64,000 bases of DNA from Bacteroidaceae bacterium (GTDB taxonomy: Bacteria; Bacteroidota; Bacteroidia; Bacteroidales; Bacteroidaceae), in the NCBI GenBank assembly GCA_017631315.1, contig JAGBTN010000005.1:141353-205352 (forward strand), read 5' to 3'. The notes below the pieces were generated by a model that saw only the letters and a program-made list of their open reading frames with translations, made no database searches and was not told where the DNA came from. Numbering within the stretch: position 1 is the stretch's first letter; each line of letters begins with the position of its first letter. Below are positions 5,014-34,040 of this stretch, one piece after another. Position numbers and translations under genes: made by a program.

Positions 5014-5092
5014 GGTTAACCTTTATGGGCAATTAGGCACGTTGAAATGGGCAAAAAGGTTAACCATTATACTCAAAAAGATTAACCTTTCC
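5014..5092 (+). repeat. 22-bp-period GTTAAC array, locus A1
   Basis: TTAACC motifs occur at 5016, 5060 and 5082, that is at exact multiples of 22 bp, with a decayed copy at the missing 5038 position. Units read GGTTAACC, then (A/T)TTAT, then GGGCA and an A-rich tail. Same architecture and orientation as the arrays near 8.9, 18.9, 24.9, 28.4 and 34.0 kb. Confidence 0.8.
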
Positions 5093-5385
5093 AAAAGGAC
5101 TTCCGCTGCACCTTATAAAAGAATTCATCGCAGTTCTGGACATCTGCTTTACTGAATGATACGAAAAACACTTTTTTGCCCATTTCATCGGCAAAAACAA
5201 GACATCGAGAGTGGACAGGTTTGGACAGCAGAAGTGCTGTCAGTAAGAGTTTTTTAATCAAAATGCAAACCGTCTGCATACCTACACAGCTAACTGGAAA
5301 ATTTGCAGTTCATAAGCCCATAGGACTTATGAGACGCCCGAAAGTCACATACAAGAACCACTGCTCATTTTTCTCTACCTTTCGC

Positions 5386-5416
5386 TTGCAAAAACAAAGA
5401 AAAAGTTGTAACTTTG
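5386..5416 (+). promoter_or_regulatory. gyrB promoter, Bacteroidetes type
   Basis: TTG at 5386-5388, a 20-bp spacer and TAACTTTG at 5409-5416 match the Bacteroidetes sigma-ABfr consensus. Transcription would start near 5423, which makes the ATG at 5447 a more natural start than the upstream ATG at 5429. Confidence 0.75.
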
Positions 5417-5446
5417 TAGCGAAAACAAATGCCAATACGACAGATT

Positions 5447-7420
5447 ATGGAAGAAACAGAAAAGAAACCGCAGGAATACAGTGCGTCGAACATACAAGTG
5501 CTCGAAGGACTGGAAGCGGTACGCAAACGCCCCGCAATGTACATCGGAGACATCAGCGAAAAGGGTCTGCACCACCTTGTATACGAAACCGTAGACAACT
5601 CCATCGACGAAGCCCTCGCTGGCTATTGCACACACATCGAGGTGACCATCAACGAGGATAACAGCATCACGGTTCAGGATAACGGACGAGGCATCCCCGT
5701 CGATATGCACGAAAAGGAGCACAAGAGTGCCCTCGAGGTGGTAATGACGGTTCTGCATGCCGGTGGTAAGTTCGACAAAGGTAGCTACAAGGTCAGTGGC
5801 GGTCTGCACGGTGTCGGCGTAAGCTGCGTAAATGCGCTTTCTTCCAAGATGATAAGTCAAGTCTTCCGCGATGGCAAGATTTATCAGCAGGAGTACACTA
5901 CCGGCAAACCCGTGACAGGTGTTGAAATCGTAGGCACGACAGAGTTGCGAGGCACACGCCAACAATTCTGGCCCGACGGTTCAATCTTCACCACCACAAC
6001 ATACAAGTATGACATCCTCGCCAACCGCATGCGCGAATTGGCATACCTTAATGCCGGCATAGCAATCACATTGACCGACCTTCGCCCCGACGAGGAAGGC
6101 AAAACCAAGAGCGAAAAGTTCTACAGCGAAGGCGGTTTGCGCGACTTCGTACGCTACATCGATAGCAGCCGCACACACCTCTTCGACGACGTCATCTACC
6201 TCAACACCGAGAAACAGGGCACACCTATCGAGGTTGCCATCATGTATAACACAGCATACACCGAGAACCTTCACTCGTATGTAAACAACATCAATACCAT
6301 CGAAGGCGGCACACACCTGCAAGGCTTCCGCATGGCATTGACACGTATCCTCAAGAAATACGCCGAGGAAAAGCACGAAAAAGAGTTGGAGAAACTCGCC
6401 AAGAACAGCGTAGAAATCAGCGGCGAAGACTTCCGCGAAGGCCTTACCGCCGTTATCTCCATCAAGGTTGCCGAGCCACAGTTTGAGGGTCAGACAAAGA
6501 CTAAATTAGGAAACAGCGAAGTAGCCGGAGCCGTACAGCAGGCCGTAGGCGAGGCTCTCACATATTATCTTGAGGAACATCCGCGTGAGGCAAAGCTCAT
6601 TGTCGACAAAGTGCTGTTGGCTGCCCAAGCACGTGTGGCAGCACGCAAGGCACGCGAGAACGTCCAGAGAAAGAATCCCATGAGCGGCGGCGGACTGCCC
6701 GGCAAGTTGGCAGACTGCTCGGACAAGGATCCTGCAAATGCAGAACTCTTCATTGTCGAGGGTGACTCTGCAGGTGGTTCGGCAAAACAAGGTCGCAATC
6801 GCCACTTCCAGGCCATCCTTCCCATTCGTGGTAAGATATTTAATGTGGAGCGCGTGATGTGGAACAAAGCCTTCGAGCACGAGGAAGTAAACAACATCAT
6901 ACAGGCTCTGGGCGTGAAGTTCGGTCTCAATCCCGACGACTACAAGGAGGCTAACTACGACAAACTGCGCTACTACAAGACAATCATCATGACCGATGCC
7001 GATGTCGATGGCTCGCACATCGACACACTTCTCATGACTCTCTTCTTCCGCTACATGCCGCAGCTCATCAAGGACGGCAGGCTTTATATTGCCACTCCAC
7101 CACTCTATCGCTGCTCGTACGGTAAAATCGAGGAGTATTGCTACGACGAAGAGGCACGTCTGCGCTTCATTCAGACATACTGCAACGGCAATGCCGACGA
7201 CAACAAGCTGCATACGCAGCGTTACAAAGGTCTTGGTGAAATGAATCCCAAGCAACTTTGGGAGACAACTATGGACCCCGAGCAGCGTCGCCTGAAGCAG
7301 GTCACCATTGAAGATGCTGCTGCTGCTGACTATGTTTTCTCAATGCTTATGGGCGAGGATGTTGGTCCGCGTCGCGAATTCATTGAGAAGAACGCTACCT
7401 TCGCAAACATCGACGCATAA
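5447..7420 (+). CDS. gyrB: DNA gyrase subunit B
   Basis: Subunit B of the type IIA topoisomerase that introduces negative supercoils using ATP. An ATG six codons upstream (5429) is possible but would leave almost no leader behind the promoter at 5386-5416. Counting from 5429, the GHKL ATPase domain shows DNGRGIP near residue 84 and GGLHGVG near 124; the TOPRIM domain shows EGDSAGG at 444-450 and the metal-binding DADVDGSH at 523-530; the C-terminal tail has RYKGLGEMN. The length (657 residues from the chosen start) is normal for the short Bacteroidetes GyrB. Single gene followed by a hairpin terminator. Confidence 0.97.
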
Positions 7421-7428
7421 AAACAACA

Positions 7429-7495
7429 GGGCTTAATGAGGATGCCTGGAGGCAGATTGCCTGCAACTTCCCATTAAGCCCTTATTATTTTTGTT
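7429..7495 (+). terminator. Terminator of gyrB
   Basis: Stem GGGCTTAATG (7429-7438) pairs with CATTAAGCCC (7472-7481), with a smaller inner hairpin in between, and is followed by TTATTATTTTTG. Confidence 0.75.
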
Positions 7496-32222: not shown

Positions 32223-32291
32223 AGTATTATTGTTTGTTGTTTCGATTGTTGTTCTTCCCCTTTCTTGTCCATAGGATATGGTGAGGTGTGA

Positions 32292-33872
32292 TTACTCGAG
32301 TATGTTGTATCGGAAGTAGTCTGTCTGGACTTTTCCGCCTTGTGATTCTGTCGTGTTGTAGGCATAGAGTCCCACGTGTGCGCCTTTCCAGTGTCCGTTG
32401 TGCATGGAGAATGGCTGCCCGGCCGGTGTGTAGTGTTTGCCGTCGGTGCTGTAGGAGAATTGGTGTATGTTCTGCTTGCTGTCGATTGTGATTCGCAGAT
32501 AGACGATTTTTCTGCATGGTTCCAGTATGGTTCGCTTGCCGTTGTCTTCTATGTAGATGTGTCTGTTGCCATTTTTGCAGATGCCTATGCCTTTGAATTC
32601 TTGCCCGATGCAGAGTAATCCTGTGTGGTCTCCGTCGCGAAGTTGTGAGCAATCGATGCGTGTTGTTGCTTCGCTTTTGTATCCCATTGTTTTTTGGCAG
32701 AGTGTTCCGCGGGCGTTTTTGATATTGGTGGCGGGGAGTATGTGGCGGGTGAGCCATCCTTGTCGTTCGGTGAGGTTCCATGCAGTGTCCACTGGGTTGT
32801 GGTTCCACTGCCATTGTGGCCCGAGGAGGCGTTGTTTTGGGCCTGCCCAGTAGGGTTGTTCTGCCGAGAATTCGTCGCTGGTTGCCGGCAGGAATGTTGT
32901 TGTTGTCTGTGTGGGTGCGGTCCATACCGGTACCGGTTCGCCTATGCCGTTGCCGTCGATGTCTGTTCCGACGAGTGGCCAGTCATCTTTCCAGCGAGCG
33001 GGTTGCAGGTGTACGACTCTGCCCAGGGGCTGTGTGTCCTGGAAGTGCATGAACCACCATGTGTCGTCGTTGTGCTGGAGGAGTGCTCCCTGGTGTGGTC
33101 CGTTGATGGTTGTTGTGCCTTGTTCCAGTACGATGCGCCGTTCGTAGGGGCCGTAGATGTTTTTTGAGCGGAGCACGGTTTGCCAGCCTTTGCTGACGCC
33201 TCCTTCGGGGATGACGAGGTAGTAGTATCCGTTTCGCTTGAGGAATTTTGTGCCTTCGGCTACGGGGCCTTCATAGACGGTCACGCCGTCGTCGAGGAGT
33301 CTGGTGCCGTCGGGGCTCATTTTGTGTATGATGATGGGGCCTGCGCCCAGTTGGCTGCGCCCGAGATAGGCTTGCCCATCCTCGTCCCAGAAGGGGCATG
33401 GGTCTTCCCAGTACTTTACATCTTTCACGCAGTGCAAGGGTGTCCAGGGGCCTTCGGGCTTTTCGGCTGTCGACATGAAGAGGCCTTCGTAGGGTGTGCA
33501 GAAATAGATGTAGAAGCGGCCGTTATGGTGGCGTATGGCCGGAGCCCACGAGCCGCCACCATATTGGTTGCTCGTGTCGTAGCCGGGCAGTTCGATGCGG
33601 TCGTACACTTGGCTGATGATACGCCAGTTCATCAGGTCGGACGACTCGAGCACTTGCATTCCCATGAAGTGGAAGTCGCTCGCCACCATGTAGTATTTGT
33701 TGTTCGCGCGCACCACATCGGGGTCGCTGTAGTCGGCATTGAGAATGGGGTTCTTGTACGTATTGTTCTTCTGGTTGCCCCACCGGAGCGGCTGCTGTGC
33801 CACCGAAGCGGCTGCCGCAGAGGCAACAAGCAAGAGCATGGAGGAGAGCCTCCTTAGAGTTGTTTTTCTCAT
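32292..33872 (-). CDS. Glycoside hydrolase family 43 protein (beta-xylosidase/arabinofuranosidase type)
   Basis: 526 residues from the ATG at 33872 (MRKTTLRRLSS), chosen because the 15 extra upstream codons overlap the promoter. Signal peptide to about residue 25. Five-bladed propeller with NPILNADYSDPDVV (catalytic base region near 47-50), YWEDPCPFWDEDG (middle Asp) and VAEGTKFLKRNGYYYL (acid Glu region). A C-terminal concanavalin-like sandwich (DUF1349-type, from about residue 330) is typical of xylosidase/arabinanase subfamilies. Substrate not determined. Confidence 0.9.
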   Translation of the reverse strand: MRKTTLRRLSSMLLLVASAAAASVAQQPLRWGNQKNNTYKNPILNADYSDPDVVRANNKYYMVASDFHFMGMQVLESSDLMNWRIISQVYDRIELPGYDTSNQYGGGSWAPAIRHHNGRFYIYFCTPYEGLFMSTAEKPEGPWTPLHCVKDVKYWEDPCPFWDEDGQAYLGRSQLGAGPIIIHKMSPDGTRLLDDGVTVYEGPVAEGTKFLKRNGYYYLVIPEGGVSKGWQTVLRSKNIYGPYERRIVLEQGTTTINGPHQGALLQHNDDTWWFMHFQDTQPLGRVVHLQPARWKDDWPLVGTDIDGNGIGEPVPVWTAPTQTTTTFLPATSDEFSAEQPYWAGPKQRLLGPQWQWNHNPVDTAWNLTERQGWLTRHILPATNIKNARGTLCQKTMGYKSEATTRIDCSQLRDGDHTGLLCIGQEFKGIGICKNGNRHIYIEDNGKRTILEPCRKIVYLRITIDSKQNIHQFSYSTDGKHYTPAGQPFSMHNGHWKGAHVGLYAYNTTESQGGKVQTDYFRYNILE

Positions 33873-33914
33873 AACATTATCCTTTTCGTCTGCCACATTA
33901 TGGCCTGCTGTCTG

Positions 33915-33922
33915 CAAAGATA
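33915..33922 (-). promoter_or_regulatory. -7 box of GH43 promoter
   Basis: TATCTTTG on the minus strand, 43 bp ahead of the chosen ATG. No good -33 TTG is seen at the expected distance, so activation by a regulator is possible. Confidence 0.5.
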
Positions 33923-33962
33923 TGATTTTCCTCCGACACTGCCTAATCTTTCGCCCAAAATA

Positions 33963-34040
33963 GGTTAACCATTATGAACAGAAAGGTTAAGCATTATGGG
34001 CAGAAAGGTTAACCTTGTGGGCAAAATAGGTTAACCTTTC
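33963..34040 (+). repeat. 22-bp-period GTTAAC array, locus A6
   Basis: Four units with TTAACC (one TTAAGC) at 33965, 33987, 34009 and 34031, exact 22-bp steps, separated by ATTATG-GGCAGAAA-type spacers. It sits between the divergent promoters of the GH43 and GH97 genes. Confidence 0.92.

Follow-up and report, generated by a model that had tools for sequence, protein, structure and literature searches.

What are the short palindromes that recur at 22-bp steps in many small arrays on the chromosome of a Bacteroidaceae bacterium, and does anything read them? The question is raised by a stretch of 64,000 nt (the window; positions 141353-205352 of contig C3) in the genome analysed here, G000, whose assembly comprises 2.68 Mb in 21 contigs and is 87% complete. 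A reading of the window from its letters alone (the sequence-only reading) had listed six loci with palindromic units at steps of 22 bp, or of 44 bp across a decayed unit; all six are present, and their core positions were recovered. Tentatively, with a confidence somewhat short of even, we regard these arrays as clusters of about four palindromic, two-turn-spaced predicted sites for a sequence-specific DNA-binding protein.

Phased palindromes throughout the genome

When the window was scanned for tandem periods, nine stretches were found at period 22, against 0-2 at every other period from 14 to 33, and 20 shuffles gave none. The core GGTTAACC occurs 12 times in exact form, with seven pairs at 22 or 44 bp, while 200 dinucleotide shuffles of the window yielded on average 0.61 cores and zero pairs. 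Single words resembling GGTTAACC (up to one mismatch) showed no excess (21 versus 17 expected); the array signal consists of exact cores and their spacing, not of near-match single words.

The genome-wide search for the core at 22-bp spacing that had been proposed as a check bore the observation out. GGTTAACC-N14-GGTTAACC was found at 414 places in G000 compared to 13 for the reversed control (up to three mismatches), and at 350 compared to 2 when up to two mismatches were allowed. With 105 spacers counted in 39 arrays, or 2.7 pairs for each array, these 350-414 pairs correspond to some 130-150 arrays of the main family, so that by this estimate G000 carries well over a hundred of them.

The anatomy of the arrays was studied in 324 kb of G000, namely the window and 260 kb taken mostly where a GGTTAACC pair matched, and array densities and gap occupancy in this sample are therefore biased upwards. 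It holds 39 main-family arrays; 26 of them have four cores, three have five, and the rest have three or two cores, five arrays of each size. The distances between exact cores, up to 150 bp, are exclusively 22, 44, 66 and 88. Arrays were called at a period score of at least 23, a limit that lets in a few coding or AT-rich stretches; period 21 also scores in G000, with 10 arrays against 52 at period 22.

The 14-bp spacers between the cores are built from a limited set of half-types (ATTAT, TTTCC, TTTCT, ATTCT, ATTCC and others) around a G/C-rich centre, which amounts to a second, loose dyad 11 bp from each core. Neighbouring spacers resemble each other no more than do spacers taken from different arrays (z 0.4, n 66), which argues against simple slippage. 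Furthermore, identical spacers are found in different arrays in 24 pairs, against 2.9 expected (standard deviation 2.0, first-order model), and the units of G000 are of non-local origin. Among core variants with up to two mismatches, 48 of 52 substitutions are G-to-C changes at the outer two half-site positions and 2 are transitions, a pattern that does not look like mutational decay. The arrays often end in A and T tracts. At 15-23 bases outward of the outermost cores the flanks are non-random and in phase with the next unit: position 15 is C or G in 87% of the 68 flanks of G000 and position 20 is C in 1%, a feature for which we have no explanation.

Gene positions from a simple codon-score script allowed 49 of the 52 arrays to be placed. 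Twenty-two lie in gaps between tandem genes, 16 in convergent gaps, 8 in divergent gaps and 3 inside genes. The median distance is 51 bp from a preceding stop codon (37 sides) and 135 bp to a following start (27 sides). Arrays occupy many of the wider intergenic gaps in the sampled stretches. The statement of the sequence-only reading that the arrays are not coding holds for the great part of them, which lie in non-coding gaps, but fails for the array at 28.4 kb, which is within the open reading frame (ORF) of an M16 peptidase.

One architecture and many palindromes in related species

To compare G000 with its relatives, we used the murE region of 20 further genomes of the same genus and a second sample. 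The near clade comprises 17 genomes, including G000 itself and the sister species G023. Two or more period-22 arrays were present in the sampled stretches of 16 of the 17 near-clade genomes. Five more distant genomes had 0-2, some of them real-looking (G031, G015). Most near-clade genomes carry palindromes other than GGTTAACC: CCCTATAGGG was found in G005, GTACTTAT in G088, CCGCGTGCGG in G026, G075 and G093, CACTAGT types in G094 and G112, ATCACGTGG in G035, AGAGCACGC in G113, and there are others besides.

Four cores were counted in whole genomes as spaced pairs with up to two mismatches, and each was abundant in one to three of the searched genomes and rare elsewhere. GGTTAACC gave 350 pairs in G000, 332 in G023 and 34 in G019, with at most 7 in 58 other genomes, and CCTATAGG gave 177 in G005 and 49 in G034, with at most 7 in 20 others. 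For CGTACTTA the counts were 311/308 in G088 and 19/26 in G113, and none of 20 others exceeded 8; for CCGCGTGCGG they were 254/349 in G026, 242/240 in G075 and 171/145 in G093, and none of 19 others exceeded 6. The reversed controls were not empty in every genome: that of GGTTAACC gave 29 in G031 and 10 in both G032 and G034, and that of CGTACTTA gave 12/11 in G034 and 6/9 in G015; these may be further cores. Single arrays with a foreign core also occur. The sole CCGCGTGCGG array found in G000 (L213:9625-9748, contig C12) is located between two AcrB-type efflux genes.

Different cores stand at homologous places. The mraY-murE gap contains an array in 14 of the 16 assessable near-clade genomes and in none of five outgroups, and manual grouping distinguished nine cores there. 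The ftsA-ftsQ gap holds an array in 5 of 14 near-clade genomes, where it measures 163-206 bp, and is 5 bp long in six others; the ends between filled and near-empty gaps are not clean, and one unit is present in G034 versus four in G005. Sequence adjoining the arrays is recognisably alike across species with different cores, as in the last ~20 bases before ftsA. In 14 of the 16 near-clade genomes in which it could be assessed, the linker region of the M16 peptidase likewise reaches the score of a period-22 array, although two of these matches (G034, score 24; G076, score 23) barely reach the limit. The linker segment is 60 or 67 residues long in the near clade; in 24 other genomes it has 54-63 residues in 19 and 69-138 in five. 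These lengths suggest that the array has for the most part replaced linker DNA instead of extending the linker by its whole size.

In a tree built from 11 concatenated proteins, in which several nodes are weakly supported and labels were entered by hand, cores are shared by the neighbours G000/G023, G094/G112, G005/G034 and G076/G113. CCGCGTGCGG is found in the non-sisters G093, G026 and G075 and, at the loci seen, in G096, and may be the ancestral core. A fixed architecture, often at fixed places, with an exchanged palindrome is, as far as these sequence comparisons go, our main comparative result. The conservation between species that had been put forward as a test is thus partial: the period and often the position are kept, but the core is replaced.

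Some gaps of the dcw region in G076 (stretch L088), G113 (L089) and G088 (L080) contain repeats of ~9 bp of the CCTATAAGA/CCCATAGG types, and such gaps hold 22-bp arrays in some relatives.

Constrained cores and apparently replaced spacers in the sister species

All 15 arrays that could be tested in G023, whose assembly is 72% complete, are common to both species, one of them being shorter by exactly 66 bp, that is, three units. Of the remaining arrays among the 52, 35 had flanks unmatched within the G023 stretches used and 2 had too little flank. A looser search found both sides of the arrays at 42.9, 48.1 and 53.6 kb of the window in G023, unaligned. Divergence was calculated for 12 of the 15 arrays (34-36 units), after dropping the coding array, the shortened array and an array with an altered end. 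It was run twice, anchored on good cores and then by phase alone, with the same outcome.

The cores are constrained. With phase anchoring they differ at 5 of 288 sites (1.7%), and the TT/AA adjoining the core differs at 2 of 144, while fourfold sites differ at 15.4% of 11,804 and other intergenic sites at 11.4% of 1,589. The four central spacer positions differ at 38 of 144 (26%), which is more than at neutral sites. Furthermore, transitions make up 38 of 96 substitutions (40%) in the arrays, compared to 391 of 637 (61%) in the flanks (p 9e-5), and spacers thus seem to change by replacement of units more than by point mutation.

Arrays of the window

Coordinates in this section are window positions, arrays are given without strand, and the gene names of the dcw cluster were assigned from Pfam families and gene order. 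The first GGTTAACC array (5014..5087; cores 5014/5058/5080, decayed unit 5036) lies between a DUF3575 gene and gyrB. The former (2822-4549, minus strand) has a coding 66-bp tandem repeat of its own, with 2.2 copies at 3617-3760. The second GGTTAACC array (8851..8936), with cores at 8876/8898 and partial outer units, occupies the convergent recO-ftsZ gap and is also present in G023. The mraY-murE gap holds the third (18844..18917), whose four cores (18844/18866/18888/18910) include CCTTAACC as the outer two. The fourth, at 24860..24933 in the divergent gap upstream of mraZ, has GGTTAACC at 24860/24882, GGTGTGGC at 24904 and GGTTAACC again at 24926.

The array at 28381..28478 is of the GTGTGGC type, with 4.5 copies at 22 bp, and codes for the variable inter-domain linker of the M16 peptidase (27827..29107, minus strand, 426 aa). 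The last of the six, a GGTTAACC array at 33963..34036 (cores 33963/33985/34007/34029, the second being GGTTAAGC), is in the divergent gap before a GH97 gene, and it is this array that is three units shorter in G023.

In addition to these six loci, a second family with a period of 22 was found at 42891..43005 (CACGTG cores), 48131..48188 (CTGCAG/CACGTG cores) and 53640..53735 (CACGTG cores). For the one at 42891..43005, the corresponding end of stretch L058 in G023 also carries a period-22 array. About 890 bp adjoining the 53.6-kb array (~53750-54640) are without counterpart at the same place in G023. The period scan also gave a weaker array at 62047..62112, with GGTACACC/GGCATACC-like units.

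The six loci had been described as reading in one direction, from which a polarity element linked to replication or segregation had been proposed. The core is palindromic. Its asymmetric flanks point one way in some arrays and the opposite way in others, and in many they point both ways; the flanks of core 8876, for example, are opposite to those of core 18866. The polarity idea fails because the orientation is mixed. The weak GC skew across the window gives no clear indication of an origin.

Binding sites or selfish DNA

Phasing, core constraint, independent spacers in G000 and a narrow set of core variants fit phased protein binding, as does the usual array size, which is four cores in most G000 arrays and four or five in 19 of 23 G088 arrays. 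The proposal of the sequence-only reading, a protein that contacts a single face of the helix at sites two turns apart, is still the best reading. Under this model a protein would read the core palindrome, and neighbouring dimers would lie side by side on one DNA face. The core would change when the specificity of the reader changes, and single units would be exchanged among arrays, by which the arrays of one genome could change together. Candidate roles may be nucleoid layout, insulation or the marking of self DNA. We also considered a more far-reaching version, a species-specific, chromosome-wide DNA address code in which more than 100 phased arrays are served by one fast-changing reader and switch palindrome in concert, while the two-turn spacing, the array size and many positions stay through the switch; this we hold possible, though doubtful.

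Several observations weigh against binding sites. If selection acts separately on each of several hundred weak sites, it is difficult to see how the core could be replaced completely, and binding alone does not explain spacer centres that diverge more than neutral sites. Sharing of tracts beyond one unit was not in excess (13 pairs of at least 28 bp, versus 4-13 in eight shuffles). G109, a member of the near clade, has no period-22 array in 40 kb (stretch L085), where 14-, 15- and 21-bp repeats were seen. In G075 most arrays have three cores (16 of 23, at the match limit used), and 5 steps are of 21 bp against 22 of 22 bp. In G088, adjacent spacers are alike (z 7.5), which indicates that element-wise or local copying occurs there. 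Finally, no reader was found in the single candidate family examined, Lrp/AsnC.

For this family, 14 of 23 alignment rows were used, 8 of a first and 6 of a second paralogue, with G000 and G023 among the nine excluded for a wrong overlapping reading frame. The first paralogue has the same recognition-helix core in 8 of 8 species despite their different arrays, and was rejected as the reader of the core because its helix is constant across species with different cores; for G000 and G023 this constancy is inferred. The second has the same helix in 5 of 6 species, with G096 differing.

The main rival is a selfish or mobile minisatellite, of the BrickBuilt, MITE (miniature inverted-repeat transposable element) or REP (repetitive extragenic palindrome) kind: small elements without host function would fill non-coding gaps and be homogenised by copying. 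Its best support comes from G088, where 12 of the 23 sampled arrays have shared flanks. The shared element is mostly ~161 bp long (152-183 among the listed pairs) and ends in TGATAATCCGCAAAA. By our own reading, a TGATAATCCGCAAAA-like end is close to 11 G088 arrays and present on both sides in six. Counts of this end reach 33/21 in G088, and none of 21 other genomes has more than 4. Arrays can thus be carried by a MITE. Terminal inverted repeats with a common leader and tail, the mark of MITE and BrickBuilt elements, are a feature of about half of the 23 G088 arrays and did not show around the sampled arrays of G000 and G075. The G088 arrays at the M16 and mraY-murE loci have the same core without TGATAATCCGCAAAA ends. 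The filled and near-empty ftsA-ftsQ gaps, as well as the placement of arrays shortly after stop codons and in convergent gaps, are also in keeping with a mobile origin.

In G000 the picture is different. No shared flanks were found around its 39 arrays or around 23 arrays of G075, and no strong k-mer common to the flanks of either indicated a common end; in G000 no flanking inverted repeats stood out and direct repeats were not in excess (4.50 versus 4.48). The earlier claim that the arrays are not ends of insertion sequences therefore holds in G000 as far as these tests for shared flanks, inverted ends and flanking duplications go. The presence in both sister species of every testable array also speaks against mobility, and plain mobility predicts neither the phase, nor a core divergence below that of neutral sites, nor a swap of cores inside homologous flanks. 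The Y1 transposase PF01797 occurs in 9 of 22 genomes and was not found in the incomplete assemblies of G000 and G023. With G000 lacking a PF01797 hit (at 87% completeness), and with its spacer pairing and self-complementarity below random, a REP system with its associated transposase (RAYT) was rejected for this genome. Overall, we consider a selfish origin unlikely as the explanation; concerted binding-site arrays and a selfish or MITE-borne origin can nevertheless both be true.

An uptake or self-recognition code, similar to the DNA uptake sequence (DUS) dialects of Neisseriaceae, would let biased uptake spread and homogenise the array of each species. Species-specific cores at shared positions, the many copies and the placement after genes agree with it, and it would explain genome-wide switching, but a 22-bp phase and clusters of four are not known for DUS, and we judge such a code improbable.

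An RNA-level element, namely a transcription terminator or a 3' hairpin, is judged equally improbable. The arrays are flanked by A and T tracts and lie near stop codons, their palindromic cores could pair, and the transcript-exit side is slightly richer in T (4.30 versus 3.56 of 7, p 0.10). However, pairing between adjacent spacers falls below the random level (z -2.1 in G000, -2.2 in G023), the self-complementarity of single spacers is lower than in column shuffles (7.77 versus 8.69, standard deviation 0.17), one array is inside an ORF and others are within the dcw cluster. We rejected this as the main role, although the T-richness, at p 0.10, decides neither for nor against a terminator.

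Simple slippage, as in variable number tandem repeats, was rejected for G000 since neighbouring units are not the most alike and array sizes peak at four cores, although whole-unit length differences of 66 bp do occur between species and neighbouring spacers are alike in G088 (z 7.5; z 1.0 in G075). Nor do the arrays resemble clustered regularly interspaced short palindromic repeats (CRISPR), as already stated from the sequence: the 14-bp spacers are semi-conserved rather than unique, recur between arrays and are spread over many loci (no search for cas genes was made).

Occurrence beyond the near clade

Matches to a three-core pattern led to records of Tannerella, Prevotellaceae and Chitinophagaceae with clear arrays of related palindromes, a set selected by the pattern itself. 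One Chitinophagaceae record (L191:6484-6702) has a GGGTTAACCC array of about ten units at period 22. An unselected set of 20 stretches, 278 kb in all and representing 20 other families within the order, gave one AT-rich period-22 match and no excess.

In viral contigs, 20 stretches matched a two-core pattern, which is near chance by a rough estimate. Six scored as period-22 arrays (L169, L172, L179, L180, L181 and L182), the clearest being L181 and L182, apparently from one and the same phage. Both are viral contigs of ~100 kb with two neighbouring 22-bp arrays of different cores (L182:5080-5267 and L181:231-418); the pair in L182 directly follows a 607-aa ORF and precedes a DUF6712 protein. 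A distant-match search of plasmid records with window positions 18600-19100 returned no similar DNA.

Significance and comparison with known systems

Should a protein read the arrays, the clade would provide about nine palindromes at a single homologous site as a natural series, and the cause of genome-wide code switching (reader change, biased copying or biased uptake) would become directly testable. An address code, if true, would be a bacterial counterpart of the co-evolution of satellites and their binding proteins. Should there be no such reader, the arrays are a clear bacterial example of dispersed, satellite-like DNA that evolves in concert. Either way, they fill many of the larger intergenic gaps in the sampled stretches, and even the linker of one protein. 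We found no description of these arrays in a literature search confined to open-licence papers.

Phased operator clusters of oligomeric regulators, such as Lrp/AsnC octamers and MraZ, serve particular promoters. The arrays are similar to them in having several sites at regular helical spacing, but their sites number several hundred and lie for the most part in gaps that follow genes, and their core changes between close species. REPs and bacterial interspersed mosaic elements (BIME) with a RAYT are high-copy extragenic palindromes that form species-specific families, often after genes; REPs form hairpins and accompany a Y1 transposase. All of the former traits recur here, whereas the arrays are phased at 22 bp, their spacers pair below random, and the search for a Y1 transposase was negative for both G000 and G023.

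Uptake sequences of the DUS kind are single short words. In Neisseriaceae they are described as having many copies and species dialects (PMC3630211). In these two respects, as that source presents them, the arrays are alike, but they form phased clusters instead of single short words.

The closest parallel comes from Porphyromonas gingivalis, a member of the same phylum as this bacterium. Its BrickBuilt minisatellite-MITE consists of dispersed intergenic tandem repeats with a period of 23 nt, has 19 forms in strain ATCC 33277, and is equipped with a leader, a tail and IS5-like inverted repeats; 22-nt direct repeats were reported for strain W83 (PMC4596501). To the extent of that description, the two share a near-equal period and an intergenic location, and, as for some G088 arrays, an element ended by inverted repeats. 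Unlike the BrickBuilt elements so described, the arrays of G000 number several hundred pairs, usually have 3-5 units and were found without such ends, and at the same loci the core differs from one species to the next.

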